Of a DNA stretch of 64,000 nt, positions 10,733 to 64,000 are shown in pieces. The stretch is from the NCBI GenBank assembly GCA_032622095.1, contig CP136062.1, positions 150,220,875-150,284,874 of the forward strand, written 5' to 3'. The stretch is from Siphonodentalium dalli (lineage: Eukaryota > Mollusca > Scaphopoda > Gadilida > Siphonodentaliidae). The translations under genes and the position numbers were made by a program. The notes under the pieces are model-generated. The model was not told where the DNA came from. It worked only from the letters and a program-made list of their open reading frames with translations, and made no database searches. How positions within the stretch are numbered: the stretch's first letter is position 1; every line of letters begins with the position of its first letter.

Positions 10733-11558
10733 CAAATCTTTCTTCGTTTACAATGTCTTGAAAAACTATTTCACTTTGGAGCAATGACAAGTTGAGAAAC
10801 TTGGATTGTTCACTTTTGATTACGAAACAACTTTTACTATGAAAATATTTGATGATCATTTCGACGGCTTTCTTTCCATTATTGTATACGCATTCTCTGA
10901 TCTTGCCGAACGACCCTTCGCCCAGCTTTCGACACAGAATGTATCCTTTTCCACTTTGGAGCAATGACAAGTTGAGAAACTTGGATTGTTCACTTTTGAT
11001 TACGAAACAACTTTTACTATAAAAACAATCTGATGAAAGCAAGTTTCCGTGCATTTCACGGAAACTTGGAATTTCCCCACCCACGCAATCGGTTAACGTC
11101 ACAGACATGTTATAAAGGTCACGACATTGCCAACCGGACATGGATGTATAAAAGCCTCCTTTATCAAAGATTTCTTCATTTACAATGTCCTGAAAAACTA
11201 TTCCACTTTGGAGCAATGACAAGTTGAGAAACTTGGATTGTTCACTTTTGATTACGAAACAACTTTTACTATAAAAAAAATCTGATGAATAAATGTTTCC
11301 GTGCATTTCACGGAAACATGGAATTTCCCCACCCCCGCAATCGGTGAACGTCACAGACATGTTATAAAGGTCACGACATTGCCAACCGGACTTGGATGTA
11401 TAAAAGCCTCCTTTATCAAAGATTTCTTCATTTACAATGTCCTGAAAAACTATTCCACTTTGGAGCAATGACAAGTTGAGAAACTTGGATTGTTCACTTT
11501 TGATTACGAAACAACTTTTACTATAAAAACAATCTGATGAAAGCAAGTTTCCGTGCAT
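10722..11558 (-). CDS. Chimeric 278-codon frame: monomer, monomer, kinase P-loop fragment, monomer
   Basis: One uninterrupted frame reads through two and a half monomers, switches at LLQSG to kinase residues 9-39 (KGYILCRKLGEGSFGK and onward to AVEM), and returns to monomer sequence (KSCFVIKSEQ). The kinase part keeps its native frame and its GEGSFG nucleotide-binding loop but lacks the catalytic lysine and everything after. It has one substitution (Gly14 to Cys). It cannot be a kinase. Whether it is expressed is unknown. The most economical reading is a recombination relic at the array edge whose frame happens to stay open. Confidence 0.35.
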   Translation of the reverse strand: MHGNLLSSDCFYSKSCFVIKSEQSKFLNLSLLQSGIVFQDIVNEEIFDKGGFYTSKSGWQCRDLYNMSVTFTDCGGGEIPCFREMHGNIYSSDFFYSKSCFVIKSEQSKFLNLSLLQSGIVFQDIVNEEIFDKGGFYTSMSGWQCRDLYNMSVTLTDCVGGEIPSFREMHGNLLSSDCFYSKSCFVIKSEQSKFLNLSLLQSGKGYILCRKLGEGSFGKIRECVYNNGKKAVEMIIKYFHSKSCFVIKSEQSKFLNLSLLQSEIVFQDIVNEERFDPA

Positions 11559-11707
11559 TTCACGGAAACTTGGAATTTCCCCGCCCCCGCAAATTTCTTC
11601 ATTTGAAAAACTATTTCACTTTGGAGCAATGACAAGTTGAGAAACTTGGATTGTTCACTTTTGATTACGAAATAACTTTTACTATACAAAAATCTGATTC
11701 CGTGCAG
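10733..11707 (-). repeat. Edge block of the array: diverged monomers with an embedded kinase fragment
   Basis: This terminal block is shorter than the standard one. Read on the minus strand it has the truncated monomer, then A, B and a partial A, a 94-bp kinase piece, and a last partial monomer with private changes (ATTTGACCCTGC end, TTTCTTCGTTTACAATGTCTTG). Extra divergence at the outermost monomers is usual at satellite edges, where homogenisation is weakest. Confidence 0.85.
10857..10950 (-). pseudogene. 94-bp kinase N-terminal fragment at the array edge
   Basis: It matches 12535-12628 of the first complete copy (codons 8-39) with a single visible change. It is bordered on both sides by monomer sequence. 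The right junction has a short overlap (CTTTT followed by CCACTTTGGAGC), compatible with microhomology-mediated joining. Confidence 0.85.
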
Positions 11708-11841
11708 GACAAAACCATGAACTGCAAAAAAGGAAAAATTAACGGGGATTCCCCTTCCATACAAACGACAGAACCAGTCCTTGTGAGTCTTGGAAATGTT
11801 TGTATATAAAATTTGGTTGAGAATTTTTTTAAAGAAAAAAA

Positions 11842-12651
11842 TTATTGTAACCACTTATGTTCGCGGATTTCAGAGAGGGTTATGCGTTTATTCACATCTG
11901 GTTCCAGAAGTCTCAATACTAAATCGACACAGTCATTCCCAACTTCGAGCGATTTTGGCAGCAGTGTTTCTCCGGGGGTTTGATTCTTCACAATTTTCTG
12001 GATATATGAGTTGCTGAATGGCATTCTTCCAAACACCAATGAGTACATAATTATGCCCAAGCTCCATATATCTGCCATAAATGGATCGTAGTTTTCGCCC
12101 CGTATTATTTCAGGAGAAATATATGAAGAGCTCCCACAGAAAGTATTGCTCAATTCCTTCATGTTGGACATGCGCCTCGCAAAGCCAAAGTCGGTTATCT
12201 TTGCTTTGCCATTTAAGTCGAGCAGGATATTTTCCAATTTGAGATCTCGGTGCGCTATCTTCTGCTCATGCAGATTAACAACACCGTGAATAATTTGTTT
12301 GAATAATTGCTTTGCTTCGCCTTCGTTCATGGGGCCATTGTCAGTAATTTTGTCCAAGAGGTCACCTCCCCGAACCAGTTCCATGAAGATGTAAATATTT
12401 TCCTTCAGTTCGATAACATTATGCAGCTTGACAACGCTATCTGAACTAATGCTCGAGAGAACGTTTATTTCTCTCGGTAAGAACTTTTCTAGGAACTCGG
12501 GTGAAGCATTCGTCTTATTGATTATTTTCACCGCCATTTCGACGGCTTTCTTTCCATTATTGTATACGCATTCTCTGATCTTGCCGAACGACCCTTCGCC
12601 CAGCTTTCGACCCAGAATGTATCCTTTTTTCGCAAGAAATGAATTTTCCAT
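11842..12651 (-). CDS. TSSK-like serine/threonine protein kinase, copy 1
   Basis: A single-exon protein kinase of 269 residues, the size of the short TSSK family members. Visible features are the P-loop GEGSFG (18-23), ATP-binding Lys42 in AVK, the FLEKFLPREI segment with the helix C Glu61 (53-62, a hallmark of TSSKs), gatekeeper Met90, catalytic loop HRDLKLEN (134-141) and DFG (154-156). The activation segment TFCGSSSYISPE has Thr170 as the likely activating site and SPE in place of APE. Asp194 of the DIWSLG motif and the C-lobe Arg256 are also present. All catalytic residues are there, so it should be active. TSSKs act in spermatids in other animals; testis expression here is inference. The ATG is chosen because it sits close behind a TATA box and because Tyr11 starts the kinase fold. 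The frame stops right after the domain (KWLQ). Confidence 0.9.
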   Translation of the reverse strand: MENSFLAKKGYILGRKLGEGSFGKIRECVYNNGKKAVEMAVKIINKTNASPEFLEKFLPREINVLSSISSDSVVKLHNVIELKENIYIFMELVRGGDLLDKITDNGPMNEGEAKQLFKQIIHGVVNLHEQKIAHRDLKLENILLDLNGKAKITDFGFARRMSNMKELSNTFCGSSSYISPEIIRGENYDPFMADIWSLGIIMYSLVFGRMPFSNSYIQKIVKNQTPGETLLPKSLEVGNDCVDLVLRLLEPDVNKRITLSEIREHKWLQ

Positions 12652-12664
12652 TTTTATTATAGAA

Positions 12665-12696
12665 AGTTTGAACTTTGTCCATTTCCTTTATTTATA
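12665..12696 (-). promoter_or_regulatory. Core promoter of the kinase: TATA box and initiator-like site
   Basis: On the minus strand, TATAAATA (12689-12696) is followed 27 bases on by TCAAACT (12665-12671), which fits the initiator pattern YYANWYY. This would give a leader of only about 17 bases before the ATG at 12651. The box sits 38-45 bases before the ATG in every copy, with TATA starts at 15578, 18467, 21356, 24238, 27136, 29521, 32410, 35299, 38188, 41077, 42958, 45847, 47728, 50366, 53254, 56474, 59363 and 62252. Each unit thus seems to carry its own promoter. This rests on motif matching only. Confidence 0.55.
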
Positions 12697-12727: not shown

Positions 12728-12752
12728 CGTGACCCTTGTCATAAAGGTCACG
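12728..12752. other. Small dyad at the promoter/monomer junction
   Basis: CGTGACC and GGTCACG form 7-bp inverted arms around an 11-base loop. The dyad is present at the same place in each unit (77-101 bases before the kinase ATG). The right arm belongs to the first monomer, while the left arm is unique to the unit. The error-rich unit has one extra base in the loop. It could be a protein-binding site or chance. Confidence 0.4.
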
Positions 12753-13279
12753 ACATTGTCAACCGGACTTGGATGTATAAAAGCCTCCTTTATCAGAGAT
12801 TTCTTCATTTACAATGTCCTGAAAAACTATTTCACTTTGGAGCAATGACAAGTTGAGAAACTTGGATTGTTCACTTTTGATTACGAAACAACTTTTACTA
12901 TTAAAAAAATTTGATGAATAAATGTTTCCGTGCATTTCACGGAAACATGGAATTTCCCCACCCCCGCAATCGGTGAACGTCACATACATGTTATAAAGGT
13001 CACGACATTGCCAACCGGACTTGGATGTATAAAAGCCTCCTTTATCAAAGATTTCTTCATTTACAATGTCCTGAAAAACTATTCCACTTTGGAGCAATGA
13101 CAAGTTGAGAAACTTGGATTGTTCACTTTTGATTACGAAACAACTTTTACTATAAAAAAAATCTGATGAATAAATGTTTCCGTGCATTTCACGGACACTT
13201 GGAATTTACCCACCCCCGCAATCGATGAACGTCACAGACAAGTTATAACGGTCACGACATTGCCAACCGGACTTGGATG

Positions 13280-13287
13280 TATAAAAG
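13280..13287 (+). promoter_or_regulatory. TATAAAAG box on the plus strand of each monomer (example)
   Basis: A perfect TATAAAAG lies 34 bases after GGTCACG in every monomer, facing away from the kinase. B monomers also hold AATAAA on the same strand about 140 bases on. The pair could drive and end short antisense transcripts, but in an AT-rich repeat both may be fortuitous. Confidence 0.3.
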
Positions 13288-13424
13288 CCTCCTTTATCAA
13301 AGATTTCTTCATTTACAATGTCCTGAAAAACTATTCCACTTTGGAGCAATGACAAGTTGAGAAACTTGGATTGTTCACTTTTGATTACGAAACAACTTTT
13401 ACTATAAAAACAATCTGATGAAAG

Positions 13425-13453
13425 CAAGTTTCCGTGCATTTCACGGAAACTTG
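13425..13453. other. A-type monomer hairpin (12-bp perfect stem, 5-base loop)
   Basis: CAAGTTTCCGTG (13425-13436), loop CATTT, then CACGGAAACTTG (13442-13453), an exact complement. It recurs in every A monomer. In RNA or single-stranded DNA this would be a stable stem-loop. Confidence 0.85.
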
Positions 13454-13677
13454 GAATTTCCCCACCCCCGCAATCGGTTAACGTCACAGACATGTTATAA
13501 AGGTCACGACATTGCCAACCGGACATGGATGTATAAAAGCCTCCTTTATCAAAGATTTCTTCATTTACAATGTCCTGAAAAACTATTCCACTTTGGAGCA
13601 ATGACAAGTTGAGAAACTTGGATTGTTCACTTTTGATTACGAAACAACTTTTACTATAAAAAAAATCTGATGAATAA

Positions 13678-13704
13678 ATGTTTCCGTGCATTTCACGGAA
13701 ACAT
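13678..13704. other. B-type monomer hairpin (11-bp perfect stem, 5-base loop)
   Basis: ATGTTTCCGTG, loop CATTT, then CACGGAAACAT. Relative to the A type, the pair next to the shared nine has flipped from A-T to T-A, so pairing is preserved. The monomer at 13174-13200 joins a B-type left arm to an altered A-type right arm (CACGGACACTT) and loses two pairs. Confidence 0.8.
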
Positions 13705-14597
13705 GGAATTTCCCCACCCCCGCAATCGGTGAACGTCACAGACATGTTATAAAGGTCACGACATTGCCAACCGGACTTGGATGTATAAAAGCCTCCTTTA
13801 TCAAAGATTTCTTCATTTACAATGTCCTGAAAAACTATTCCACTTTGGAGCAATGACAAGTTGAGAAACTTGGATTGTTCACTTTTGATTACGAAACAAC
13901 TTTTACTATAAAAACAATCTGATGAAAGCAAGTTTCCGTGCATTTCACGGAAACTTGGAATTTCCCCACCCACGCAATCGGTTAACGTCACAGACATGTT
14001 ATAAAGGTCACGACATTGCCAACCGGACATGGATGTATAAAAGCCTCCTTTATCAAAGATTTCTTCATTTACAATGTCCTGAAAAACTATTCCACTTTGG
14101 AGCAATGACAAGTTGAGAAACTTGGATTGTTCACTTTTGATTACGAAACAACTTTTACTATAAAAAAAATCTGATGAATAAATGTTTCCGTGCATTTCAC
14201 GGAAACATGGAATTTCCCCACCCCCGCAATCGGTGAACGTCACAGACATGTTATAAAGGTCACGACATTGCCAACCGGACTTGGATGTATAAAAGCCTCC
14301 TTTATCAAAGATTTCTTCATTTACAATGTCCTGAAAAACTATTCCACTTTGGAGCAATGACAAGTTGAGAAACTTGGATTGTTCACTTTTGATTACGAAA
14401 CAACTTTTACTATAAAAACAATCTGATGAAAGCAAGTTTCCGTGCATTTCACGGAAACTTGGAATTTCCCCGCCCCCGCAAATTTCTTCATTTGAAAAAC
14501 TATTTCACTTTGGAGCAATGACAAGTTGAGAAACTTGGATTGTTCACTTTTGATTACGAAATAACTTTTACTATACAAAAATCTGATTCCGTGCAGG

Positions 14598-14730: not shown

Positions 14731-15540
14731 TTATTGTAACCACTTATGTTCGCGGATTTCAGAGAGGGTTATGCGTTTATTCACATCTGGTTCCAGAAGT
14801 CTCAATACTAAATCGACACAGTCATTCCCAACTTCGAGCGATTTTGGCAGCAGTGTTTCTCCGGGGGTTTGATTCTTCACAATTTTCTGGATATATGAGT
14901 TGCTGAATGGCATTCTTCCAAACACCAATGAGTACATAATTATGCCCAAGCTCCATATATCTGCCATAAATGGATCGTAGTTTTCGCCCCGTATTATTTC
15001 AGGAGAAATATATGAAGAGCTCCCACAGAAAGTATTGCTCAATTCCTTCATGTTGGACATGCGCCTCGCAAAGCCAAAGTCGGTTATCTTTGCTTTGCCA
15101 TTTAAGTCGAGCAGGATATTTTCCAATTTGAGATCTCGGTGCGCTATCTTCTGCTCATGCAGATTAACAACACCGTGAATAATTTGTTTGAATAATTGCT
15201 TTGCTTCGCCTTCGTTCATGGGGCCATTGTCAGTAATTTTGTCCAAGAGGTCACCTCCCCGAACCAGTTCCATGAAGATGTAAATATTTTCCTTCAGTTC
15301 GATAACATTATGCAGCTTGACAACGCTATCTGAACTAATGCTCGAGAGAACGTTTATTTCTCTCGGTAAGAACTTTTCTAGGAACTCGGGTGAAGCATTC
15401 GTCTTATTGATTATTTTCACCGCCATTTCGACGGCTTTCTTTCCATTATTGTATACGCATTCTCTGATCTTGCCGAACGACCCTTCGCCCAGCTTTCGAC
15501 CCAGAATGTATCCTTTTTTCGCAAGAAATGAATTTTCCAT
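14731..15540 (-). CDS. TSSK-like kinase, copy 2
   Basis: Intact 269-codon frame with the same protein as copy 1. I see no nucleotide difference from copy 1 by eye. It is separated from copy 1 by the seven-monomer block 1. Confidence 0.9.
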   Translation of the reverse strand: MENSFLAKKGYILGRKLGEGSFGKIRECVYNNGKKAVEMAVKIINKTNASPEFLEKFLPREINVLSSISSDSVVKLHNVIELKENIYIFMELVRGGDLLDKITDNGPMNEGEAKQLFKQIIHGVVNLHEQKIAHRDLKLENILLDLNGKAKITDFGFARRMSNMKELSNTFCGSSSYISPEIIRGENYDPFMADIWSLGIIMYSLVFGRMPFSNSYIQKIVKNQTPGETLLPKSLEVGNDCVDLVLRLLEPDVNKRITLSEIREHKWLQ

Positions 15541-17619: not shown

Positions 17620-18429
17620 TTATTGTAACCACTTATGTTCGCGGATTTCAGAGAGGGTTATGCGTTTATTCACATCTGGTTCCAGAAGTCTCAATACTAA
17701 ATCGACACAGTCATTCCCAACTTCGAGCGATTTTGGCAGCAGTGTTTCTCCGGGGGTTTGATTCTTCACAATTTTCTGGATATATGAGTTGCTGAATGGC
17801 ATTCTTCCAAACACCAATGAGTACATAATTATGCCCAAGCTCCATATATCTGCCATAAATGGATCGTAGTTTTCGCCCCGTATTATTTCAGGAGAAATAT
17901 ATGAAGAGCTCCCACAGAAAGTATTGCTCAATTCCTTCATGTTGGACATGCGCCTCGCAAAGCCAAAGTCGGTTATCTTTGCTTTGCCATTTAAGTCGAG
18001 CAGGATATTTTCCAATTTGAGATCTCGGTGCGCTATCTTCTGCTCATGCAGATTAACAACACCGTGAATAATTTGTTTGAATAATTGCTTTGCTTCGCCT
18101 TCGTTCATGGGGCCATTGTCAGTAATTTTGTCCAAGAGGTCACCTCCCCGAACCAGTTCCATGAAGATGTAAATATTTTCCTTCAGTTCGATAACATTAT
18201 GCAGCTTGACAACGCTATCTGAACTAATGCTCGAGAGAACGTTTATTTCTCTCGGTAAGAACTTTTCTAGGAACTCGGGTGAAGCATTCGTCTTATTGAT
18301 TATTTTCACCGCCATTTCGACGGCTTTCTTTCCATTATTGTATACGCATTCTCTGATCTTGCCGAACGACCCTTCGCCCAGCTTTCGACCCAGAATGTAT
18401 CCTTTTTTCGCAAGAAATGAATTTTCCAT
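17620..18429 (-). CDS. TSSK-like kinase, copy 3
   Basis: Intact frame with the reference protein. It is exactly 2,889 bases from copy 2. Confidence 0.9.
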   Translation of the reverse strand: MENSFLAKKGYILGRKLGEGSFGKIRECVYNNGKKAVEMAVKIINKTNASPEFLEKFLPREINVLSSISSDSVVKLHNVIELKENIYIFMELVRGGDLLDKITDNGPMNEGEAKQLFKQIIHGVVNLHEQKIAHRDLKLENILLDLNGKAKITDFGFARRMSNMKELSNTFCGSSSYISPEIIRGENYDPFMADIWSLGIIMYSLVFGRMPFSNSYIQKIVKNQTPGETLLPKSLEVGNDCVDLVLRLLEPDVNKRITLSEIREHKWLQ

Positions 18430-20508: not shown

Positions 20509-21318
20509 TTATTGTAACCACTTATGTTCGCGGATTTCAGAGAGGGTTATGCGTTTATTCACATCTGGTTCCAGAAGTCTCAATACTAAATCGACACAGT
20601 CATTCCCAACTTCGAGCGATTTTGGCAGCAGTGTTTCTCCGGGGGTTTGATTCTTCACAATTTTCTGGATATATGAGTTGCTGAATGGCATTCTTCCAAA
20701 CACCAATGAGTACATAATTATGCCCAAGCTCCATATATCTGCCATAAATGGATCGTAGTTTTCGCCCCGTATTATTTCAGGAGAAATATATGAAGAGCTC
20801 CCACAGAAAGTATTGCTCAATTCCTTCATGTTGGACATGCGCCTCGCAAAGCCAAAGTCGGTTATCTTTGCTTTGCCATTTAAGTCGAGCAGGATATTTT
20901 CCAATTTGAGATCTCGGTGCGCTATCTTCTGCTCATGCAGATTAACAACACCGTGAATAATTTGTTTGAATAATTGCTTTGCTTCGCCTTCGTTCATGGG
21001 GCCATTGTCAGTAATTTTGTCCAAGAGGTCACCTCCCCGAACCAGTTCCATGAAGATGTAAATATTTTCCTTCAGTTCGATAACATTATGCAGCTTGACA
21101 ACGCTATCTGAACTAATGCTCGAGAGAACGTTTATTTCTCTCGGTAAGAACTTTTCTAGGAACTCGGGTGAAGCATTCGTCTTATTGATTATTTTCACCG
21201 CCATTTCGACGGCTTTCTTTCCATTATTGTATACGCATTCTCTGATCTTGCCGAACGACCCTTCGCCCAGCTTTCGACCCAGAATGTATCCTTTTTTCGC
21301 AAGAAATGAATTTTCCAT
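20509..21318 (-). CDS. TSSK-like kinase, copy 4
   Basis: Intact frame with the reference protein. It is the last of four apparently identical consecutive copies before the error-rich unit. Confidence 0.9.
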   Translation of the reverse strand: MENSFLAKKGYILGRKLGEGSFGKIRECVYNNGKKAVEMAVKIINKTNASPEFLEKFLPREINVLSSISSDSVVKLHNVIELKENIYIFMELVRGGDLLDKITDNGPMNEGEAKQLFKQIIHGVVNLHEQKIAHRDLKLENILLDLNGKAKITDFGFARRMSNMKELSNTFCGSSSYISPEIIRGENYDPFMADIWSLGIIMYSLVFGRMPFSNSYIQKIVKNQTPGETLLPKSLEVGNDCVDLVLRLLEPDVNKRITLSEIREHKWLQ

Positions 21319-23397: not shown

Positions 23398-24200
23398 TTA
23401 TTGTAACCACTTATGTTCGCGGATTTCAGAGAGGGTTATGCGTTTATTCACATCTGGTTCCAGAAGTCTCAATACTAAATCGACACAGTCATTCCCAACT
23501 TCGAGCGATTTTGGCAGCAGTGTTTCTCCGGGGGTTTGATTCTTCACAATTTTCTGGATATATGAGTTGCTGAATGGCATTCTTCCAAACACCAATGATG
23601 CCCAAGCTCCATATATCTGCCATAAATGGATCGTAGTTTTCGCCCCGTATTATTTCAGGAGAAATATATGAAGAGCTCCCACAGAAAGTATTGCTCAATT
23701 CCTTCATGTTGGACATGCGCCTCGCAAAGCCAAAGTCGGTTTATCTTTGCTTTGCCATTTAAGTCGAGCAGGATATTTCCAATTTGAGATCTCGGTGCGC
23801 TATCTTCTGCTCATGCAGATTAACAACACCGTGGAATAATTTGTTTGAATAATTGCTTTGCTTCGCCTTCGTTCAATGGGGCCATTGTCAGTAATTTTGT
23901 CCAAGAGGTCACCTCCCCGAACCAGTTCCATGAAGATGTAAATATTTTCCTTCAGTCGATAACATTATGCAGCTGACAACGCTATCTGAACTAATGCTCG
24001 AGAGAACGTTTTATTTCTCTCGGTAAGAACTTTTCTAGGAACTCGGGGTGAAGCATTCGTCTTATTGATTATTTTCACCGCCCATTTCGACGGCTTTCTT
24101 TCCATTATTGTATACGCATTCTCTGATCTTGCCGAACGACCCTTCGCCCAGGCTTTCGACCCAGAATGTATCCTTTTTTCGCAAGAAATGAATTTTCCAT
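23398..24200 (-). pseudogene. TSSK-like kinase, copy 5, broken by many indels (probable consensus errors)
   Basis: It runs from the equivalent ATG (24198-24200) to the equivalent stop. Compared with copy 1 there is an 11-base deletion near 23598 (the GTACATAATTA region) and about ten single-base gains or losses, mostly in or next to homopolymers (GTTTATC, GGGGTGAAG, GCCCATTT, CCCAGGCTT), with no clear substitution. Only short frames remain (23716-23489, 23595-23398). Indels without substitutions point to uncorrected long-read consensus rather than natural decay, so the underlying gene may be intact. Confidence 0.75.
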
Positions 24201-26288: not shown

Positions 26289-27098
26289 TTATTGTAACCA
26301 CTTATGTTCGCGGATTTCAGAGAGGGTTATGCGTTTATTCACATCTGGTTCCAGAAGTCTCAATACTAAATCGACACAGTCATTCCCAACTTCGAGCGAT
26401 TTTGGCAGCAGTGTTTCTCCGGGGGTTTGATTCTTCACAATTTTCTGGATATATGAGTTGCTGAATGGCATTCTTCCAAACACCAATGAGTACATAATTA
26501 TGCCCAAGCTCCATATATCTGCCATAAATGGATCGTAGTTTTCGCCCCGTATTATTTCAGGAGAAATATATGAAGAGCTCCCACAGAAAGTATTGCTCAA
26601 TTCCTTCATGTTGGACATGCGCCTCGCAAAGCCAAAGTCGGTTATCTTTGCTTTGCCATTTAAGTCGAGCAGGATATTTTCCAATTTGAGATCTCGGTGC
26701 GCTATCTTCTGCTCATGCAGATTAACAACACCGTGAATAATTTGTTTGAATAATTGCTTTGCTTCGCCTTCGTTCATGGGGCCATTGTCAGTAATTTTGT
26801 CCAAGAGGTCACCTCCCCGAACCAGTTCCATGAAGATGTAAATATTTTCCTTCAGTTCGATAACATTATGCAGCTTGACAACGCTATCTGAACTAATGCT
26901 CGAGAGAACGTTTATTTCTCTCGGTAAGAACTTTTCTAGGAACTCGGGTGAAGCATTCGTCTTATTGATTATTTTCACCGCCATTTCGACGGCTTTCTTT
27001 CCATTATTGTATACGCATTCTCTGATCTTGCCGAACGACCCTTCGCCCAGCTTTCGACCCAGAATGTATCCTTTTTTCGCAAGAAATGAATTTTCCAT
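26289..27098 (-). CDS. TSSK-like kinase, copy 6
   Basis: Intact frame with the reference protein. It is the first clean copy after the indel-rich patch. Confidence 0.9.
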   Translation of the reverse strand: MENSFLAKKGYILGRKLGEGSFGKIRECVYNNGKKAVEMAVKIINKTNASPEFLEKFLPREINVLSSISSDSVVKLHNVIELKENIYIFMELVRGGDLLDKITDNGPMNEGEAKQLFKQIIHGVVNLHEQKIAHRDLKLENILLDLNGKAKITDFGFARRMSNMKELSNTFCGSSSYISPEIIRGENYDPFMADIWSLGIIMYSLVFGRMPFSNSYIQKIVKNQTPGETLLPKSLEVGNDCVDLVLRLLEPDVNKRITLSEIREHKWLQ

Positions 27099-28673: not shown

Positions 28674-29483
28674 TTATTGTAACCACTTATGTTCGCGGAT
28701 TTCAGAGAGGGTTATGCGTTTATTCACATCTGGTTCCAGAAGTCTCAATACTAAATCGACACAGTCATTCCCAACTTCGAGCGATTTTGGCAGCAGTGTT
28801 TCTCCGGGGGTTTGATTCTTCACAATTTTCTGGATATATGAGTTGCTGAATGGCATTCTTCCAAACACCAATGAGTACATAATTATGCCCAAGCTCCATA
28901 TATCTGCCATAAATGGATCGTAGTTTTCGCCCCGTATTATTTCAGGAGAAATATATGAAGAGCTCCCACAGAAAGTATTGCTCAATTCCTTCATGTTGGA
29001 CATGCGCCTCGCAAAGCCAAAGTCGGTTATCTTTGCTTTGCCATTTAAGTCGAGCAGGATATTTTCCAATTTGAGATCTCGGTGCGCTATCTTCTGCTCA
29101 TGCAGATTAACAACACCGTGAATAATTTGTTTGAATAATTGCTTTGCTTCGCCTTCGTTCATGGGGCCATTGTCAGTAATTTTGTCCAAGAGGTCACCTC
29201 CCCGAACCAGTTCCATGAAGATGTAAATATTTTCCTTCAGTTCGATAACATTATGCAGCTTGACAACGCTATCTGAACTAATGCTCGAGAGAACGTTTAT
29301 TTCTCTCGGTAAGAACTTTTCTAGGAACTCGGGTGAAGCATTCGTCTTATTGATTATTTTCACCGCCATTTCGACGGCTTTCTTTCCATTATTGTATACG
29401 CATTCTCTGATCTTGCCGAACGACCCTTCGCCCAGCTTTCGACCCAGAATGTATCCTTTTTTCGCAAGAAATGAATTTTCCAT
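28674..29483 (-). CDS. TSSK-like kinase, copy 7
   Basis: Intact frame with the reference protein. Its ATG lies 2,385 bases from that of copy 6 because of the shortened block. Confidence 0.9.
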   Translation of the reverse strand: MENSFLAKKGYILGRKLGEGSFGKIRECVYNNGKKAVEMAVKIINKTNASPEFLEKFLPREINVLSSISSDSVVKLHNVIELKENIYIFMELVRGGDLLDKITDNGPMNEGEAKQLFKQIIHGVVNLHEQKIAHRDLKLENILLDLNGKAKITDFGFARRMSNMKELSNTFCGSSSYISPEIIRGENYDPFMADIWSLGIIMYSLVFGRMPFSNSYIQKIVKNQTPGETLLPKSLEVGNDCVDLVLRLLEPDVNKRITLSEIREHKWLQ

Positions 29484-31562: not shown

Positions 31563-32372
31563 TTATTGTAACCACTTATGTTCGCGGATTTCAGAGAGGG
31601 TTATGCGTTTATTCACATCTGGTTCCAGAAGTCTCAATACTAAATCGACACAGTCATTCCCAACTTCGAGCGATTTTGGCAGCAGTGTTTCTCCGGGGGT
31701 TTGATTCTTCACAATTTTCTGGATATATGAGTTGCTGAATGGCATTCTTCCAAACACCAATGAGTACATAATTATGCCCAAGCTCCATATATCTGCCATA
31801 AATGGATCGTAGTTTTCGCCCCGTATTATTTCAGGAGAAATATATGAAGAGCTCCCACAGAAAGTATTGCTCAATTCCTTCATGTTGGACATGCGCCTCG
31901 CAAAGCCAAAGTCGGTTATCTTTGCTTTGCCATTTAAGTCGAGCAGGATATTTTCCAATTTGAGATCTCGGTGCGCTATCTTCTGCTCATGCAGATTAAC
32001 AACACCGTGAATAATTTGTTTGAATAATTGCTTTGCTTCGCCTTCGTTCATGGGGCCATTGTCAGTAATTTTGTCCAAGAGGTCACCTCCCCGAACCAGT
32101 TCCATGAAGATGTAAATATTTTCCTTCAGTTCGATAACATTATGCAGCTTGACAACGCTATCTGAACTAATGCTCGAGAGAACGTTTATTTCTCTCGGTA
32201 AGAACTTTTCTAGGAACTCGGGTGAAGCATTCGTCTTATTGATTATTTTCACCGCCATTTCGACGGCTTTCTTTCCATTATTGTATACGCATTCTCTGAT
32301 CTTGCCGAACGACCCTTCGCCCAGCTTTCGACCCAGAATGTATCCTTTTTTCGCAAGAAATGAATTTTCCAT
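31563..32372 (-). CDS. TSSK-like kinase, copy 8
   Basis: Intact frame with the reference protein. Confidence 0.9.
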   Translation of the reverse strand: MENSFLAKKGYILGRKLGEGSFGKIRECVYNNGKKAVEMAVKIINKTNASPEFLEKFLPREINVLSSISSDSVVKLHNVIELKENIYIFMELVRGGDLLDKITDNGPMNEGEAKQLFKQIIHGVVNLHEQKIAHRDLKLENILLDLNGKAKITDFGFARRMSNMKELSNTFCGSSSYISPEIIRGENYDPFMADIWSLGIIMYSLVFGRMPFSNSYIQKIVKNQTPGETLLPKSLEVGNDCVDLVLRLLEPDVNKRITLSEIREHKWLQ

Positions 32373-40229: not shown

Positions 40230-41039
40230 TTATTGTAACCACTTATGTTCGCGGATTTCAGAGAGGGTTATGCGTTTATTCACATCTGGTTCCAGAAGTC
40301 TCAATACTAAATCGACACAGTCATTCCCAACTTCGAGCGATTTTGGCAGCAGTGTTTCTCCGGGGGTTTGATTCTTCACAATTTTCTGGATATATGAGTT
40401 GCTGAATGGCATTCTTCCAAACACCAATGAGTACATAATTATGCCCAAGCTCCATATATCTGCCATAAATGGATCGTAGTTTTCGCCCCGTATTATTTCA
40501 GGAGAAATATATGAAGAGCTCCCACAGAAAGTATTGCTCAATTCCTTCATGTTGGACATGCGCCTCGCAAAGCCAAAGTCGGTTATCTTTGCTTTGCCAT
40601 TTAAGTCGAGCAGGATATTTTCCAATTTGAGATCTCGGTGCGCTATCTTCTGCTCATGCAGATTAACAACACCGTGAATAATTTGTTTGAATAATTGCTT
40701 TGCTTCGCCTTCGTTCATGGGGCCATTGTCAGTAATTTTGTCCCATAGGTCACCTCCCCGAACCAGTTCCATGAAGATGTAAATATTTTCCTTCAGTTCG
40801 ATAACATTATGCAGCTTGACAACGCTATCTGAACTAATGCTCGAGAGAACGTTTATTTCTCTCGGTAAGAACTTTTCTAGGAACTCGGGTGAAGCATTCG
40901 TCTTATTGATTATTTTCACCGCCATTTCGACGGCTTTCTTTCCATTATTGTATACGCATTCTCTGATCTTGCCGAACGACCCTTCGCCCAGCTTTCGACC
41001 CAGAATGTATCCTTTTTTCGCAAGAAATGAATTTTCCAT
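40230..41039 (-). CDS. TSSK-like kinase, copy 11 (Leu99 to Trp)
   Basis: Intact frame. Two neighbouring changes (40744 and 40746) give GGDLWDK for GGDLLDK, just after the hinge. Trp there may disturb the helix D region, so this copy could be weaker. The 3' flank has one change in the T-run at about 40215. Confidence 0.87.
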   Translation of the reverse strand: MENSFLAKKGYILGRKLGEGSFGKIRECVYNNGKKAVEMAVKIINKTNASPEFLEKFLPREINVLSSISSDSVVKLHNVIELKENIYIFMELVRGGDLWDKITDNGPMNEGEAKQLFKQIIHGVVNLHEQKIAHRDLKLENILLDLNGKAKITDFGFARRMSNMKELSNTFCGSSSYISPEIIRGENYDPFMADIWSLGIIMYSLVFGRMPFSNSYIQKIVKNQTPGETLLPKSLEVGNDCVDLVLRLLEPDVNKRITLSEIREHKWLQ

Positions 41040-42110: not shown

Positions 42111-42920
42111 TTATTGTAACCACTTATGTTCGCGGATTTCAGAGAGGGTTATGCGTTTATTCACATCTGGTTCCAGAAGTCTCAATACTAAATCGACACA
42201 GTCATTCCCAACTTCGAGCGATTTTGGCAGCAGTGTTTCTCCGGGGGTTTGATTCTTCACAATTTTCTGGATATATGAGTTGCTGAATGGCATTCTTCCA
42301 AACACCAATGAGTACATAATTATGCCCAAGCTCCATATATCTGCCATAAATGGATCGTAGTTTTCGCCCCGTATTATTTCAGGAGAAATATATGAAGAGC
42401 TCCCACAGAAAGTATTGCTCAATTCCTTCATGTTGGACATGCGCCTCGCAAAGCCAAAGTCGGTTATCTTTGCTTTGCCATTTAAGTCGAGCAGGATATT
42501 TTCCAATTTGAGATCTCGGTGCGCTATCTTCTGCTCATGCAGATTAACAACACCGTGAATAATTTGTTTGAATAATTGCTTTGCTTCGCCTTCGTTCATG
42601 GGGCCATTGTCAGTAATTTTGTCCAAGAGGTCACCTCCCCGAACCAGTTCCATGAAGATGTAAATATTTTCCTTCAGTTCGATAACATTATGCAGCTTGA
42701 CAACGCTATCTGAACTAATGCTCGAGAGAACGTTTATTTCTCTCGGTAAGAACTTTTCTAGGAACTCGGGTGAAGCATTCGTCTTATTGATTATTTTCAC
42801 CGCCATTTCGACGGCTTTCTTTCCATTATTGTATACGCATTCTCTGATCTTGCCGAACGACCCTTCGCCCAGCTTTCGACCCAGAATGTATCCTTTTTTC
42901 GCAAGAAATGAATTTTCCAT
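42111..42920 (-). CDS. TSSK-like kinase, copy 12
   Basis: Intact frame with the reference protein. It is 1,881 bases from copy 11. Confidence 0.9.
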   Translation of the reverse strand: MENSFLAKKGYILGRKLGEGSFGKIRECVYNNGKKAVEMAVKIINKTNASPEFLEKFLPREINVLSSISSDSVVKLHNVIELKENIYIFMELVRGGDLLDKITDNGPMNEGEAKQLFKQIIHGVVNLHEQKIAHRDLKLENILLDLNGKAKITDFGFARRMSNMKELSNTFCGSSSYISPEIIRGENYDPFMADIWSLGIIMYSLVFGRMPFSNSYIQKIVKNQTPGETLLPKSLEVGNDCVDLVLRLLEPDVNKRITLSEIREHKWLQ

Positions 42921-44999: not shown

Positions 45000-45809
45000 T
45001 TATTGTAACCACTTATGTTCGCGGATTTCAGAGAGGGTTATGCGTTTATTCACATCTGGTTCCAGAAGTCTCAATACTAAATCGACACAGTCATTCCCAA
45101 CTTCGAGCGATTTTGGCAGCAGTGTTTCTCCGGGGGTTTGATTCTTCACAATTTTCTGGATATATGAGTTGCTGAATGGCATTCTTCCAAACACCAATGA
45201 GTACATAATTATGCCCAAGCTCCATATATCTGCCATAAATGGATCGTAGTTTTCGCCCCGTATTATTTCAGGAGAAATATATGAAGAGCTCCCACAGAAA
45301 GTATTGCTCAATTCCTTCATGTTGGACATGCGCCTCGCAAAGCCAAAGTCGGTTATCTTTGCTTTGCCATTTAAGTCGAGCAGGATATTTTCCAATTTGA
45401 GATCTCGGTGCGCTATCTTCTGCTCATGCAGATTAACAACACCGTGAATAATTTGTTTGAATAATTGCTTTGCTTCGCCTTCGTTCATGGGGCCATTGTC
45501 AGTAATTTTGTCCAAGAGGTCACCTCCCCGAACCAGTTCCATGAAGATGTAAATATTTTCCTTCAGTTCGATAACATTATGCAGCTTGACAACGCTATCT
45601 GAACTAATGCTCGAGAGAACGTTTATTTCTCTCGGTAAGAACTTTTCTAGGAACTCGGGTGAAGCATTCGTCTTATTGATTATTTTCACCGCCATTTCGA
45701 CGGCTTTCTTTCCATTATTGTATACGCATTCTCTGATCTTGCCGAACGACCCTTCGCCCAGCTTTCGACCCAGAATGTATCCTTTTTTCGCAAGAAATGA
45801 ATTTTCCAT
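45000..45809 (-). CDS. TSSK-like kinase, copy 13
   Basis: Intact frame with the reference protein. Confidence 0.9.
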   Translation of the reverse strand: MENSFLAKKGYILGRKLGEGSFGKIRECVYNNGKKAVEMAVKIINKTNASPEFLEKFLPREINVLSSISSDSVVKLHNVIELKENIYIFMELVRGGDLLDKITDNGPMNEGEAKQLFKQIIHGVVNLHEQKIAHRDLKLENILLDLNGKAKITDFGFARRMSNMKELSNTFCGSSSYISPEIIRGENYDPFMADIWSLGIIMYSLVFGRMPFSNSYIQKIVKNQTPGETLLPKSLEVGNDCVDLVLRLLEPDVNKRITLSEIREHKWLQ

Positions 45810-46880: not shown

Positions 46881-47690
46881 TTATTGTAACCACTTATGTT
46901 CGCGGATTTCAGAGAGGGTTATGCGTTTATTCACATCTGGTTCCAGAAGTCTCAATACTAAATCGACACAGTCATTCCCAACTTCGAGCGATTTTGGCAG
47001 CAGTGTTTCTCCGGGGGTTTGATTCTTCACAATTTTCTGGATATATGAGTTGCTGAATGGCATTCTTCCAAACACCAATGAGTACATAATTATGCCCAAG
47101 CTCCATATATCTGCCATAAATGGATCGTAGTTTTCGCCCCGTATTATTTCAGGAGAAATATATGAAGAGCTCCCACAGAAAGTATTGCTCAATTCCTTCA
47201 TGTTGGACATGCGCCTCGCAAAGCCAAAGTCGGTTATCTTTGCTTTGCCATTTAAGTCGAGCAGGATATTTTCCAATTTGAGATCTCGGTGCGCTATCTT
47301 CTGCTCATGCAGATTAACAACACCGTGAATAATTTGTTTGAATAATTGCTTTGCTTCGCCTTCGTTCATGGGGCCATTGTCAGTAATTTTGTCCAAGAGG
47401 TCACCTCCCCGAACCAGTTCCATGAAGATGTAAATATTTTCCTTCAGTTCGATAACATTATGCAGCTTGACAACGCTATCTGAACTAATGCTCGAGAGAA
47501 CGTTTATTTCTCTCGGTAAGAACTTTTCTAGGAACTCGGGTGAAGCATTCGTCTTATTGATTATTTTCACCGCCATTTCGACGGCTTTCTTTCCATTATT
47601 GTATACGCATTCTCTGATCTTGCCGAACGACCCTTCGCCCAGCTTTCGACCCAGAATGTATCCTTTTTTCGCAAGAAATGAATTTTCCAT
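46881..47690 (-). CDS. TSSK-like kinase, copy 14
   Basis: Intact frame with the reference protein. Confidence 0.9.
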   Translation of the reverse strand: MENSFLAKKGYILGRKLGEGSFGKIRECVYNNGKKAVEMAVKIINKTNASPEFLEKFLPREINVLSSISSDSVVKLHNVIELKENIYIFMELVRGGDLLDKITDNGPMNEGEAKQLFKQIIHGVVNLHEQKIAHRDLKLENILLDLNGKAKITDFGFARRMSNMKELSNTFCGSSSYISPEIIRGENYDPFMADIWSLGIIMYSLVFGRMPFSNSYIQKIVKNQTPGETLLPKSLEVGNDCVDLVLRLLEPDVNKRITLSEIREHKWLQ

Positions 47691-49517: not shown

Positions 49518-50328
49518 TTATTGTAACCACTTATGTTCGCGGATTTCAGAGAGGGTTATGCGTTTATTCACATCTGGTTCCAGAAGTCTCAATACTAAAT
49601 CGACACAGTCATTCCCAACTTCGAGCGATTTTGGCAGCAGTGTTTCTCCGGGGGTTTGATTCTTCACAATTTTCTGGATATATGAGTTGCTGAATGGCAT
49701 TCTTCCAAACACCAATGAGTACATAATTATGCCCAAGCTCCATATATCTGCCATAAATGGATCGTAGTTTTCGCCCCGTATTATTTCAGGAGAAATATAT
49801 GAAGAGCTCCCACACAAAGTATTGCTCAATTCCTTCATGTTGGACATGCGCCTCGCAAAGCCAAAGTCGGTTATCTTTGCTTTGCCATTTAAGTCGAGCA
49901 GGATATTTTCCAATTTGAGATCTCGGTGCGCTATCTTCTGCTCATGCAGATTAACAACACCGTGAATAATTTGTTTGAATAATTGCTTTGCTTCGCCTTC
50001 GTTCATGGGTGCCATTGTCAGTAATTTTGTTCAAGAGGTCACCTCCCCGAACCAGTTCCATGAAGATGTAAATATTTTCCTTCAGTTCGATAACATTATG
50101 CAGCTTGACAACGCTATCTGAACTAATGCTCGAGAGAACGTTTATTTCTCTCGGTAAGAACTTTTCTAGGAACTCGGGTGAAGCATTCGTCTTATTGATT
50201 ATTTTCACCGCCATTTCGACGGCTTTCTTTCCATTATTGTATACGCATTCTCTGATCTTGCCGAACGACCCTTCGCCCAGCTTTCGACCCAGAATGTATC
50301 CTTTTTTCGCAAGAAATGAATTTTCCAT
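49518..50328 (-). pseudogene. TSSK-like kinase, copy 15, single +1 frameshift
   Basis: An extra T at about 50010 shifts the frame after Gly106, giving a 125-codon frame (50328-49951) that ends early. A second frame (50015-49518) holds the rest, from the helix E region through HRD and DFG. It also has Asp100 to Asn (50031) and Phe171 to Leu (about 49815). The first product lacks the catalytic loop. Three amino-acid-level changes in one copy suggest relaxed constraint, but the extra base alone could be a sequencing error. Confidence 0.75.
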
Positions 50329-52406: not shown

Positions 52407-53216
52407 TTATTGTAACCACTTATGTTCGCGGATTTCAGAGAGGGTTATGCGTTTATTCACATCTGGTTCCAGAAGTCTCAATACTAAATCGACACAGTCA
52501 TTCCCAACTTCGAGCGATTTTGGCAGCAGTGTTTCTCCGGGGGTTTGATTCTTCACAATTTTCTGGATATATGAGTTGCTGAATGGCATTCTTCCAAACA
52601 CCAATGAGTACATAATTATGCCCAAGCTCCATATATCTGCCATAAATGGATCGTAGTTTTCGCCCCGTATTATTTCAGGAGAAATATATGAAGAGCTCCC
52701 ACAGAAAGTATTGCTCAATTCCTTCATGTTGGACATGCGCCTCGCAAAGCCAAAGTCTGTTATCTTTGCTTTGCCATTTAAGTCGAGCAGGATATTTTCC
52801 AATTTGAGATCTCGGTGCGCTATCTTCTGCTCATGCAGATTAACAACACCGTGAATAATTTGTTTGAATAATTGCTTTGCTTCGCCTTCGTTCATGGGGC
52901 CATTGTCAGTAATTTTGTCCAAGAGGTCACCTCCCCGAACCAGTTCCATGAAGATGTAAATATTTTCCTTCAGTTCGATAACATTATGCAGCTTGACAAC
53001 GCTATCTGAACTAATGCTCGAGAGAACGTTTATTTCTCTCGGTAAGAACTTTTCTAGGAACTCGGGTGAAGCATTCGTCTTATTGATTATTTTCACCGCC
53101 ATTTCGACGGCTTTCTTTCCATTATTGTATACGCATTCTCTGATCTTGCCGAACGACCCTTCGCCCAGCTTTCGACCCAGAATGTATCCTTTTTTCGCAA
53201 GAAATGAATTTTCCAT
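52407..53216 (-). CDS. TSSK-like kinase, copy 16
   Basis: Intact frame with the reference protein. One silent change in the Thr153 codon at 52758, just before DFG. Confidence 0.9.
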   Translation of the reverse strand: MENSFLAKKGYILGRKLGEGSFGKIRECVYNNGKKAVEMAVKIINKTNASPEFLEKFLPREINVLSSISSDSVVKLHNVIELKENIYIFMELVRGGDLLDKITDNGPMNEGEAKQLFKQIIHGVVNLHEQKIAHRDLKLENILLDLNGKAKITDFGFARRMSNMKELSNTFCGSSSYISPEIIRGENYDPFMADIWSLGIIMYSLVFGRMPFSNSYIQKIVKNQTPGETLLPKSLEVGNDCVDLVLRLLEPDVNKRITLSEIREHKWLQ

Positions 53217-55626: not shown

Positions 55627-56436
55627 TTATTGTAACCACTTATGTTCGCGGATTTCAGAGAGGGTTATGCGTTTATTCACATCTGGTTCCAGAAGTCTCA
55701 ATACTAAATCGACACAGTCATTCCCAACTTCGAGCGATTTTGGCAGCAGTGTTTCTCCGGGGGTTTGATTCTTCACAATTTTCTGGATATATGAGTTGCT
55801 GAATGGCATTCTTCCAAACACCAATGAGTACATAATTATGCCCAAGCTCCATATATCTGCCATAAATGGATCGTAGTTTTCGCCCCGTATTATTTCAGGA
55901 GAAATATATGAAGAGCTCCCACAGAAAGTATTGCTCAATTCCTTCATGTTGGACATGCGCCTCGCAAAGCCAAAGTCGGTTATCTTTGCTTTGCCATTTA
56001 AGTCGAGCAGGATATTTTCCAATTTGAGATCTCGGTGCGCTATCTTCTGCTCATGCAGATTAACAACACCGTGAATAATTTGTTTGAATAATTGCTTTGC
56101 TTCGCCTTCGTTCATGGGGCCATTGTCAGTAATTTTGTCCAAGAGGTCACCTCCCCGAACCAGTTCCATGAAGATGTAAATATTTTCCTTCAGTTCGATA
56201 ACATTATGCAGCTTGACAACGCTATCTGAACTAATGCTCGAGAGAACGTTTATTTCTCTCGGTAAGAACTTTTCTAGGAACTCGGGTGAAGCATTCGTCT
56301 TATTGATTATTTTCACCGCCATTTCGACGGCTTTCTTTCCATTATTGTATACGCATTCTCTGATCTTGCCGAACGACCCTTCGCCCAGCTTTCGACCCAG
56401 AATGTATCCTTTTTTCGCAAGAAATGAATTTTCCAT
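55627..56436 (-). CDS. TSSK-like kinase, copy 17
   Basis: Intact frame with the reference protein. The palindromic insertion begins 40 bases past its stop codon, so its 3' untranslated region and any termination signal differ from those of all other copies. Confidence 0.9.
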   Translation of the reverse strand: MENSFLAKKGYILGRKLGEGSFGKIRECVYNNGKKAVEMAVKIINKTNASPEFLEKFLPREINVLSSISSDSVVKLHNVIELKENIYIFMELVRGGDLLDKITDNGPMNEGEAKQLFKQIIHGVVNLHEQKIAHRDLKLENILLDLNGKAKITDFGFARRMSNMKELSNTFCGSSSYISPEIIRGENYDPFMADIWSLGIIMYSLVFGRMPFSNSYIQKIVKNQTPGETLLPKSLEVGNDCVDLVLRLLEPDVNKRITLSEIREHKWLQ

Positions 56437-58515: not shown

Positions 58516-59325
58516 TTATTGTAACCACTTATGTTCGCGGATTTCAGAGAGGGTTATGCGTTTATTCACATCTGGTTCCAGAAGTCTCAATACTAAATCG
58601 ACACAGTCATTCCCAACTTCGAGCGATTTTGGCAGCAGTGTTTCTCCGGGGGTTTGATTCTTCACAATTTTCTGGATATATGAGTTGCTGAATGGCATTC
58701 TTCCAAACACCAATGAGTACATAATTATGCCCAAGCTCCATATATCTGCCATAAATGGATCGTAGTTTTCGCCCCGTATTATTTCAGGAGAAATATATGA
58801 AGAGCTCCCACAGAAAGTATTGCTCAATTCCTTCATGTTGGACATGCGCCTCGCAAAGCCAAAGTCGGTTATCTTTGCTTTGCCATTTAAGTCGAGCAGG
58901 ATATTTTCCAATTTGAGATCTCGGTGCGCTATCTTCTGCTCATGCAGATTAACAACACCGTGAATAATTTGTTTGAATAATTGCTTTGCTTCGCCTTCGT
59001 TCATGGGGCCATTGTCAGTAATTTTGTCCAAGAGGTCACCTCCCCGAACCAGTTCCATGAAGATGTAAATATTTTCCTTCAGTTCGATAACATTATGCAG
59101 CTTGACAACGCTATCTGAACTAATGCTCGAGAGAACGTTTATTTCTCTCGGTAAGAACTTTTCTAGGAACTCGGGTGAAGCATTCGTCTTATTGATTATT
59201 TTCACCGCCATTTCGACGGCTTTCTTTCCATTATTGTATACGCATTCTCTGATCTTGCCGAACGACCCTTCGCCCAGCTTTCGACCCAGAATGTATCCTT
59301 TTTTCGCAAGAAATGAATTTTCCAT
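58516..59325 (-). CDS. TSSK-like kinase, copy 18
   Basis: Intact frame with the reference protein. One change in the short leader (TATAGATAG for TATAGAAAG at about 59338) leaves the TATA box and initiator untouched. Confidence 0.9.
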   Translation of the reverse strand: MENSFLAKKGYILGRKLGEGSFGKIRECVYNNGKKAVEMAVKIINKTNASPEFLEKFLPREINVLSSISSDSVVKLHNVIELKENIYIFMELVRGGDLLDKITDNGPMNEGEAKQLFKQIIHGVVNLHEQKIAHRDLKLENILLDLNGKAKITDFGFARRMSNMKELSNTFCGSSSYISPEIIRGENYDPFMADIWSLGIIMYSLVFGRMPFSNSYIQKIVKNQTPGETLLPKSLEVGNDCVDLVLRLLEPDVNKRITLSEIREHKWLQ

Positions 59326-61404: not shown

Positions 61405-62214
61405 TTATTGTAACCACTTATGTTCGCGGATTTCAGAGAGGGTTATGCGTTTATTCACATCTGGTTCCAGAAGTCTCAATACTAAATCGACACAGTCATT
61501 CCCAACTTCGAGCGATTTTGGCAGCAGTGTTTCTCCGGGGGTTTGATTCTTCACAATTTTCTGGATATATGAGTTGCTGAATGGCATTCTTCCAAACACC
61601 AATGAGTACATAATTATGCCCAAGCTCCATATATCTGCCATAAATGGATCGTAGTTTTCGCCCCGTATTATTTCAGGAGAAATATATGAAGAGCTCCCAC
61701 AGAAAGTATTGCTCAATTCCTTCATGTTGGACATGCGCCTCGCAAAGCCAAAGTCGGTTATCTTTGCTTTGCCATTTAAGTCGAGCAGGATATTTTCCAA
61801 TTTGAGATCTCGGTGCGCTATCTTCTGCTCATGCAGATTAACAACACCGTGAATAATTTGTTTGAATAATTGCTTTGCTTCGCCTTCGTTCATGGGGCCA
61901 TTGTCAGTAATTTTGTCCAAGAGGTCACCTCCCCGAACCAGTTCCATGAAGATGTAAATATTTTCCTTCAGTTCGATAACATTATGCAGCTTGACAACGC
62001 TATCTGAACTAATGCTCGAGAGAACGTTTATTTCTCTCGGTAAGAACTTTTCTAGGAACTCGGGTGAAGCATTCGTCTTATTGATTATTTTCACCGCCAT
62101 TTCGACGGCTTTCTTTCCATTATTGTATACGCATTCTCTGATCTTGCCGAACGACCCTTCGCCCAGCTTTCGACCCAGAATGTATCCTTTTTTCGCAAGA
62201 AATGAATTTTCCAT
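61405..62214 (-). CDS. TSSK-like kinase, copy 19
   Basis: Intact frame with the reference protein. It is the last complete kinase in the window. Confidence 0.9.
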   Translation of the reverse strand: MENSFLAKKGYILGRKLGEGSFGKIRECVYNNGKKAVEMAVKIINKTNASPEFLEKFLPREINVLSSISSDSVVKLHNVIELKENIYIFMELVRGGDLLDKITDNGPMNEGEAKQLFKQIIHGVVNLHEQKIAHRDLKLENILLDLNGKAKITDFGFARRMSNMKELSNTFCGSSSYISPEIIRGENYDPFMADIWSLGIIMYSLVFGRMPFSNSYIQKIVKNQTPGETLLPKSLEVGNDCVDLVLRLLEPDVNKRITLSEIREHKWLQ

Positions 62215-62303
62215 TTTTATTATAGAAAGTTTGAACTTTGTCCATTTCCTTTATTTATAGATTTTTTTCCAAACGACCCGAGCATCGGAGCGTGACCCTT
62301 GTC

Positions 62304-64000
62304 ATAAAGGTCACGACATTGTCAACCGGACTTGGATGTATAAAAGCCTCCTTTATCAGAGATTTCTTCATTTACAATGTCCTGAAAAACTATTTCACTT
62401 TGGAGCAATGACAAGTTGAGAAACTTGGATTGTTCACTTTTGATTACGAAACAACTTTTACTATTAAAAAAATTTGATGAATAAATGTTTCCGTGCATTT
62501 CACGGAAACATGGAATTTCCCCACCCCCGCAATCGGTGAACGTCACATACATGTTATAAAGGTCACGACATTGCCAACCGGACTTGGATGTATAAAAGCC
62601 TCCTTTATCAAAGATTTCTTCATTTACAATGTCCTGAAAAACTATTCCACTTTGGAGCAATGACAAGTTGAGAAACTTGGATTGTTCACTTTTGATTACG
62701 AAACAACTTTTACTATAAAAAAAATCTGATGAATAAATGTTTCCGTGCATTTCACGGACACTTGGAATTTACCCACCCCCGCAATCGATGAACGTCACAG
62801 ACAAGTTATAACGGTCACGACATTGCCAACCGGACTTGGATGTATAAAAGCCTCCTTTATCAAAGATTTCTTCATTTACAATGTCCTGAAAAACTATTCC
62901 ACTTTGGAGCAATGACAAGTTGAGAAACTTGGATTGTTCACTTTTGATTACGAAACAACTTTTACTATAAAAACAATCTGATGAAAGCAAGTTTCCGTGC
63001 ATTTCACGGAAACTTGGAATTTCCCCACCCCCGCAATCGGTTAACGTCACAGACATGTTATAAAGGTCACGACATTGCCAACCGGACATGGATGTATAAA
63101 AGCCTCCTTTATCAAAGATTTCTTCATTTACAATGTCCTGTAAAACTATTCCACTTTGGAGCAATGACAAGTTGAGAAACTTGGATTGTTCACTTTTGAT
63201 TACGAAACAACTTTTACTATAAAAAAAATCTGATGAATAAATGTTTCCGTGCATTTCACGGAAACATGGAATTTCCCCACCCCCGCAATCGGTGAACGTC
63301 ACAGACATGTTATAAAGGTCACGACATTGCCAACCGGACTTGGATGTATAAAAGCCTCCTTTATCAAAGATTTCTTCATTTACAATGTCCTGAAAAACTA
63401 TTCCACTTTGGAGCAATGACAAGTTGAGAAACTTGGATTGTTCACTTTTGATTACGAAACAACTTTTACTATAAAAACAATCTGATGAAAGCAAGTTTCC
63501 GTGCATTTCACGGAAACTTGGAATTTCCCCACCCACGCAATCGGTTAACGTCACAGACATGTTATAAAGGTCACGACATTGCCAACCGGACATGGATGTA
63601 TAAAAGCCTCCTTTATCAAAGATTTCTTCATTTACAATGTCCTGAAAAACTATTCCACTTTGGAGCAATGACAAGTTGAGAAACTTGGATTGTTCACTTT
63701 TGATTACGAAACAACTTTTACTATAAAAAAAATCTGATGAATAAATGTTTCCGTGCATTTCACGGAAACATGGAATTTCCCCACCCCCGCAATCGGTGAA
63801 CGTCACAGACATGTTATAAAGGTCACGACATTGCCAACCGGACTTGGATGTATAAAAGCCTCCTTTATCAAAGATTTCTTCATTTACAATGTCCTGAAAA
63901 ACTATTCCACTTTGGAGCAATGACAAGTTGAGAAACTTGGATTGTTCACTTTTGATTACGAAACAACTTTTACTATAAAAACAATCTGATGAAAGCAAGT
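62304..64000 (-). repeat. Monomer block 19, cut by the window end, variant CRD
   Basis: The array continues past the window. Private changes occur near 63141 and in one B monomer (GIVLQD). The frame of at least 409 codons is open at the right edge. Confidence 0.9.

Follow-up and report, generated by a model that had tools for sequence, protein, structure and literature searches.

The DNA analysed here is a stretch of 64,000 nucleotides (nt) from the scaphopod mollusc Siphonodentalium dalli (C2:150,220,875-150,284,874; “the window”), which enters a tandem megasatellite whose units each carry a complete protein kinase gene. We read this locus as a functional, multi-copy gene of the TSSK kinase family, present in 84 assembled full-length copies and probably supplying a high dose of the enzyme to the male germ line; judged from the sequence, this reading has about an even chance of being right. 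Very large arrays of identical genes can be dosage devices or selfish satellites, and intact reading frames cannot tell which. In the present locus, the subarrays have diverged just enough to set these two possibilities against each other, and the variants that have spread are silent. The locus is a workable case for studying selection on a gene that undergoes satellite-like homogenisation, and the kinase family includes a member whose dose affects male fertility in mice.

The kinase array and its variants

On the minus strand of the window, 19 kinase copies lie head to tail, 17 of which retain an intact open reading frame (ORF) of 269 amino acids (aa), exactly as counted in an earlier reading of the window (the original prediction). 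That reading had delimited the array by the window, beyond whose right edge it runs on. A protein-level search of the genome (2.23 Gb in nine contigs; E 1e-20 or better) returned at least 113 matches, with at least 103 on C2 at 149.827-150.604 Mb and at least 10 elsewhere, all of these counts being lower bounds. The locus spans ~0.78 Mb of one chromosome and consists of three subarrays with differing periods (2359, 2889, 2638 bp and others):

C2 149.827-149.910 Mb: subarray A, 21 full copies
C2 150.233-150.372 Mb: subarray B, 44 full copies; the window holds its start
C2 150.471-150.604 Mb: subarray C, 19 full copies

Altogether, 97 copies were read as minus-strand matches of at least 250 nt, comprising 84 full-length copies of 810 nt and 13 shifted or truncated ones; the boundary-cut read of one copy was replaced by its full read. 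The set leaves aside an inverted fragment (C2:150,603,269), short matches at ~150,519,011 and ~150,583,785, and a 94-bp fragment in the window. Intact frames are found in 81 of the 84 full-length copies, the other three having a common stop that removes the last two residues; 66 of the 84 encode an identical 269-aa protein, and 15 distinct proteins occur overall. Two copies in subarray A (C2:149,869,999 and 149,872,637) have a common two-base loss near the end, after which the kinase frame stays open for a total of 356 aa.

Variant counts were taken from the 84 copies of exactly 810 nt, the 13 others being excluded. Among these copies, 34 bases vary, 19 silently and 15 with a change of the protein; for transition biases between 2 and 4, the codons lead one to expect a silent share of ~24-27% (8-9 of 34; p 8e-5 to 4e-4). 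Silent markers by which subarrays could be told apart lie at ORF positions 132, 303, 537, 567, 678, 780 and 789. Variants present in at least nine copies are exclusively silent (seven silent, none changing), those in two or three copies are mixed (three silent, four changing), and so are those confined to one copy (nine silent, 11 changing). Between the typical copies of subarrays A and B there are four differences, all of them silent and none changing the protein, compared with 2.8% divergence in their shared flank of 1.5 kb. This silent-biased spectrum points to purifying selection during concerted evolution and, as far as sequence comparison can tell, speaks more for a function that is being maintained than for an array that is purely selfish. 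Since the copies hardly differ in DNA, intact frames as such say little about selection; the remark of the original prediction that the copies are intact with almost no protein change holds as a description (15 of the 17 intact window ORFs encode the same protein, and 14 have the same DNA) and falls short as an argument for selection.

Homogenisation of the array is apparent from the order of the copies, with neighbours differing by 0.84 bases on average compared with 3.06 after shuffling. The effect holds within subarrays A and C and is not seen within B, which is nearly uniform; it is the outcome to be expected if unequal exchange had been operating inside the subarrays. On a larger scale, part of the left flank of B (window positions 9246-10722) and the DNA just left of A are 97.2% identical over 1499 columns, and two further flank blocks are alike at 93% and 95%; therefore, A and B, the two subarrays covered by the flank comparison, seem to share a segmental duplication.

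The original prediction had proposed that the kinase be searched against TSSK and other CAMK-group profiles and placed in a tree. Its best sequence match among solved structures is TSSK6 (E 2.3e-56), followed by SIK3 and MARK4, and in a tree of nine rows it groups with TSSK6 and three TSSK-like paralogues from the genome at a support of 100/99; constraining it to a group with SIK3 and MARK4, named after a first tree had been seen, gives a p-AU of 0.035. The FLPRE motif is contained in five of the five TSSK rows of this tree and in none of SIK3, MARK4 and CAMK1D. The idea that the repeat unit is a complete TSSK-like kinase gene without introns is borne out; the likeness to the TSSK family, i.e., to TSSK6 and molluscan TSSK-like genes, is one of sequence, of the FLPRE motif and of tree placement. 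The residues G18, G20, K42, H134-R135-D136, N141 and D154-F155-G156 are invariant with the three genome paralogues, so that, at the level of sequence, the catalytic residues of an active kinase are kept. An AlphaFold model predicts a kinase fold (pLDDT 84.5).

Among molluscan TSSK-like genes, some are described as intronless, while the TSSK1-like orthologues there are given four exons (PMC6905558); therefore, the absence of introns is no proof of a recent retrogene. Members of the family are reported as testis-predominant in abalone (PMC6905558) and mouse (PMC13066092), and for mouse Tssk6 the latter source describes infertile null males and subfertile heterozygotes. By analogy with these heterozygotes, the dose of a TSSK-family member can matter.

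The composite unit and its predicted promoter

Within the window, the copy-to-copy spacing is 2889 bp in ten of 18 intervals, and the ten units of this length differ pairwise by 0-7 bases. The remaining spacings are 1881, 1881, 2385, 2638, 2882, 2888, 2898 and 3220 bp; the unit length originally given applies to ten intervals, and some units are shortened as had been said. The features of the array and its left border are as follows:

9246-10722, no strand: left flank common to subarray A (C2:149,823,508-149,825,000), 97.2% over 1499 columns
10722-64000, minus: window part of subarray B, running past the right edge to ~C2:150.372 Mb
10857-10950, minus: 94-bp kinase fragment within satellite, at the left edge
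11842-12651, minus: kinase copy 1, intact
12689-12696, minus: TATAAATA (TATA box) upstream of copy 1, its first base 45 nt from the ATG; shared by all 19 copies
12737-14447, minus: satellite between copies 1 and 2, with six complete 252-bp monomers and a partial one
13206-14447, minus: 413-aa open frame across 252-bp monomers, no gene claimed
14731-15540, minus: kinase copy 2, intact
17620-18429, minus: kinase copy 3, intact
20509-21318, minus: kinase copy 4, intact
23398-24200, minus: kinase copy 5, frame disrupted by indels, 803 nt
26289-27098, minus: kinase copy 6, intact
28674-29483, minus: kinase copy 7, intact
31563-32372, minus: kinase copy 8, intact
34452-35261, minus: kinase copy 9, intact
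37341-38150, minus: kinase copy 10, intact, E55Q
40230-41039, minus: kinase copy 11, intact, with L99W plus a silent change
42111-42920, minus: kinase copy 12, intact
45000-45809, minus: kinase copy 13, intact
46881-47690, minus: kinase copy 14, intact
49518-50328, minus: kinase copy 15, frame disrupted by a single additional base, 811 nt
52407-53216, minus: kinase copy 16, intact, one silent change
55627-56436, minus: kinase copy 17, intact, with other DNA from ~40 nt past the stop
58516-59325, minus: kinase copy 18, intact
61405-62214, minus: kinase copy 19, intact

Each unit is a composite, in which a kinase cassette is set into a 252-bp satellite that makes up most of the unit and that the original prediction had overlooked. 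The cassette sits between monomer positions 199 and 21; the satellite is therefore interrupted by it. The other intervals between copies have a like layout, with two to six full 252-bp monomers together with partial ones. The spacings of 1881, 1881, 2385 and 2638 bp match, within one base, units that have lost four, four, two and one of their monomers, and monomer number accounts in this way for four of the eight odd unit lengths. In the 3220-bp unit, other DNA begins ~40 nt after the kinase stop.

The predicted promoter element TATAAATA stands at a fixed place, 45 nt above the ATG, in all 19 window copies, in agreement with the TATA box that the original prediction had assigned to each kinase, and in 46 of the 47 copies for which upstream DNA was read. 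The sole copy without it (C2:150,569,381) has had its upstream region replaced by other DNA and carries D136Y, a substitution of the aspartate of the HRD motif which occurs in one other copy as well.

Outside the locus, a decayed copy with satellite is found at C2:205.98 Mb (97.7% over 769 nt), along with two short kinase fragments, one on C9 and one on C4, which are without satellite in the 2.0 and 1.7 kb examined. A single-copy version elsewhere in the nine contigs was not seen; after the decayed copy and the two fragments, the next relatives are at 38-42% identity. The fragment at C9:183,009,043 is a 198-nt kinase start, and the frames beside it resemble, as judged by eye, a Penelope-type element with a GIY-YIG domain. 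As to lineage markers, the genome gave 10 C1q matches and carries (TTAGGG)n; arthropod cuticle, molluscan haemocyanin and annelid linker families gave zero matches, but as their controls stayed silent too, these zeros do not demonstrate absence, and the markers do no more than lean away from an arthropod.

Competing explanations

If the locus is a functional multi-copy gene, a kinase cassette with a short promoter would have come to lie inside the 252-bp satellite, and unequal exchange between monomers and between units would have expanded, shortened and homogenised the array, with a larger duplication separating subarrays A and B. Purifying selection would have removed protein-changing variants, and the variants that spread would for this reason be silent. 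Going by the family to which it belongs, the kinase would be expressed in the male germ line, where the many copies may meet a need for much kinase or may keep up the supply despite the steady decay of single copies.

Several results weigh against this account. The copy number rests on one assembly. The silent excess of widespread over rare variants (Fisher p 0.011) is based on frequency classes that were named after seeing the data, with the cut placed at the gap between three and nine copies, and single-copy variants taken alone show no clear excess (nine of 20 silent, p 0.07). The truncating stop, by which the last two residues are lost, is now shared by three copies, while D136Y, K9N and V237F have each reached two. 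Among the ten 2889-bp window units, variation is not lower in the ORF than in the spacer (3/810 and 7/2079 positions, respectively), and two of the three changes in the ORF are protein-changing; moreover, conservation between subarrays is about equal in the kinase and in the 250 nt that follow its stop. Poly(A) signals (AATAAA, ATTAAA and three variants) were not found within 900 nt downstream of the kinase stop in copy 2. As to the family, the nine-row tree left out vertebrate TSSK1-4, and a tree of 17 rows gives the TSSK group a support of 92/95 with two long-branch kinases inside it. The 50 listed Foldseek matches are SIK, MARK, AMPK and CaMKII kinases, none of them a TSSK; these matches of the predicted fold indicate a CAMK-type kinase, not specifically a TSSK.

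Part of this evidence suits a young coding satellite, i.e., a 252-bp satellite which swept up a kinase and was amplified by unequal exchange without any benefit from copy number, the copies appearing intact mainly because they are recent. Near-identity of the units in DNA, with 0-7 differences per 2889 bp, equal variability of ORF and spacer in the window units, a unit length that tracks monomer number, and the presence of at least 13 further copies that are broken or truncated are all in keeping with it. The variant spectrum is not, considering that silent changes make up 19 of 34 variants overall and seven of seven widespread ones, in significant excess over the rare class, and that nothing but four silent sites separates A copies from B copies, whose shared flank diverges by 2.8%. 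We regard this explanation as possible, though doubtful.

Male-germline conflict, as in the Stellate system of Drosophila, would give the array a different meaning. During spermiogenesis, a chromosome with extra copies of a sperm kinase would be favoured; owing to this transmission advantage (meiotic drive), the array would expand while selection kept its copies catalytically competent, and a cost to fertility or small RNAs made by decayed copies would cap their number. A family of sperm kinases, the very high copy number, and decayed copies together with one inverted copy near the array are features that such a dosage-based conflict locus might be expected to have. Stellate, too, is a set of tandem male-germline genes with a kinase link, the germline role of the present kinase being presumed from its family, and the copy number of Stellate is described as mattering for fertility (PMC7874207). 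However, Stellate encodes a protein like the CK2 beta regulatory subunit, not a catalytic kinase, contains introns and is silenced by PIWI-interacting RNAs (piRNAs) of a second, Y-linked array, and its single-copy testis relative is 53% identical (PMC7874207). The present genes code for a catalytic, intronless kinase whose nearest relatives are at 38-42%. A second homologous, suppressor-like array able to supply silencing RNA was not found: apart from the main array, the search of the nine contigs turned up the decayed copy, the two short fragments and one inverted fragment, although such an array could lie on a chromosome missing from the assembly. The parallel drawn in the original prediction is accordingly loose, and we consider conflict or drive an unlikely explanation, both in its Stellate-like form and as a dosage-based conflict over sperm kinase.

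An assembly artefact, in which the assembler multiplied a few true copies, comes to mind as identical tandem units are hard to assemble. The units nevertheless vary in length and carry positional variants, which cluster by subarray and, in A and C, also by neighbour; the subarrays have different periods, and like flanks occur at two places with 2.8% divergence. Even though the exact copy number could still be wrong, we deem an artefact very unlikely. The probability is slighter still that the kinase is a TSSK relative acting outside the male germ line (e.g., a somatic or egg kinase), considering that members of this family are testis-predominant in abalone and mouse (PMC6905558, PMC13066092), although TSSK placement says nothing direct about tissue.

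Comparable arrays and neighbouring sequences

Returning to the functional multi-copy gene, the closest kind of known system is the coding megasatellite RS447/USP17, the present array being a variant of that kind, not a new category; the original prediction had aptly named it as a precedent, given that its tandem units each hold a complete ORF. RS447 reportedly contains a functional promoter, to go by the title of a study cited in that field. This human megasatellite at 4p16.1 is described as having a 1593-bp ORF in a 4746-bp unit, with an estimated 20-103 copies and with 20 of 23 assembled chromosome-4 copies intact (PMC2874809). Both arrays are built from head-to-tail units in the kilobase range with one complete ORF each; they differ in that RS447/USP17 codes for a deubiquitinase and belongs to mammals, whereas the present array encodes a kinase, rests on a nested 252-bp satellite and has a duplicated flank at two of its three subarrays.

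A testis parallel is provided by TSPY on the human Y chromosome, reported as tandem genes of more than 99% identity, present in 20-64 copies in men, with a copy number linked to sperm count (PMC6772104). It resembles the kinase array as a tandem arrangement, but it encodes another protein, and its Y linkage and expression are known, whereas the kinase array is known from its sequence. Reports of a tandem array or megasatellite of TSSK genes were not found among the papers listed from the open-licence literature of PubMed Central. Hagfish germline repeats were rejected as a precedent, the paper in question stating that no ORFs were identified in the repeats (PMC9734144).

The open frame of the 252-bp monomer was considered as a second gene and rejected; no protein is claimed for it, a silent excess is lacking, and a chance frame is plausible. 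Of 203 full, ungapped monomers, 157 keep it open, and ~5% of 5000 shuffles yield an open circular frame of monomer length. Set against an expected silent share of ~23%, silent changes account for 10 of 66 among all variants, for four of 31 among those in at least two monomers, and for none of 23 among those in at least five monomers; the zero in the last class may reflect chance or a fast-changing peptide, adjacent changes not being independent. The 84-aa monomer repeat gave one match among solved structures (E 1.8), the 413-aa frame gave Pfam matches in which no stretch passed on its own, and an Rfam scan of the window gave zero matches.

To the left of the array, a 26-bp tandem repeat forms two blocks at window positions 1985-2063 and 2153-2448. 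The left flank also holds two frames like those of reverse transcriptases, one at 6379-7551, matching RVT_1 with E 0.0019, which falls short of the curated cut-off, and another, judged by eye, at ~3670-4260.

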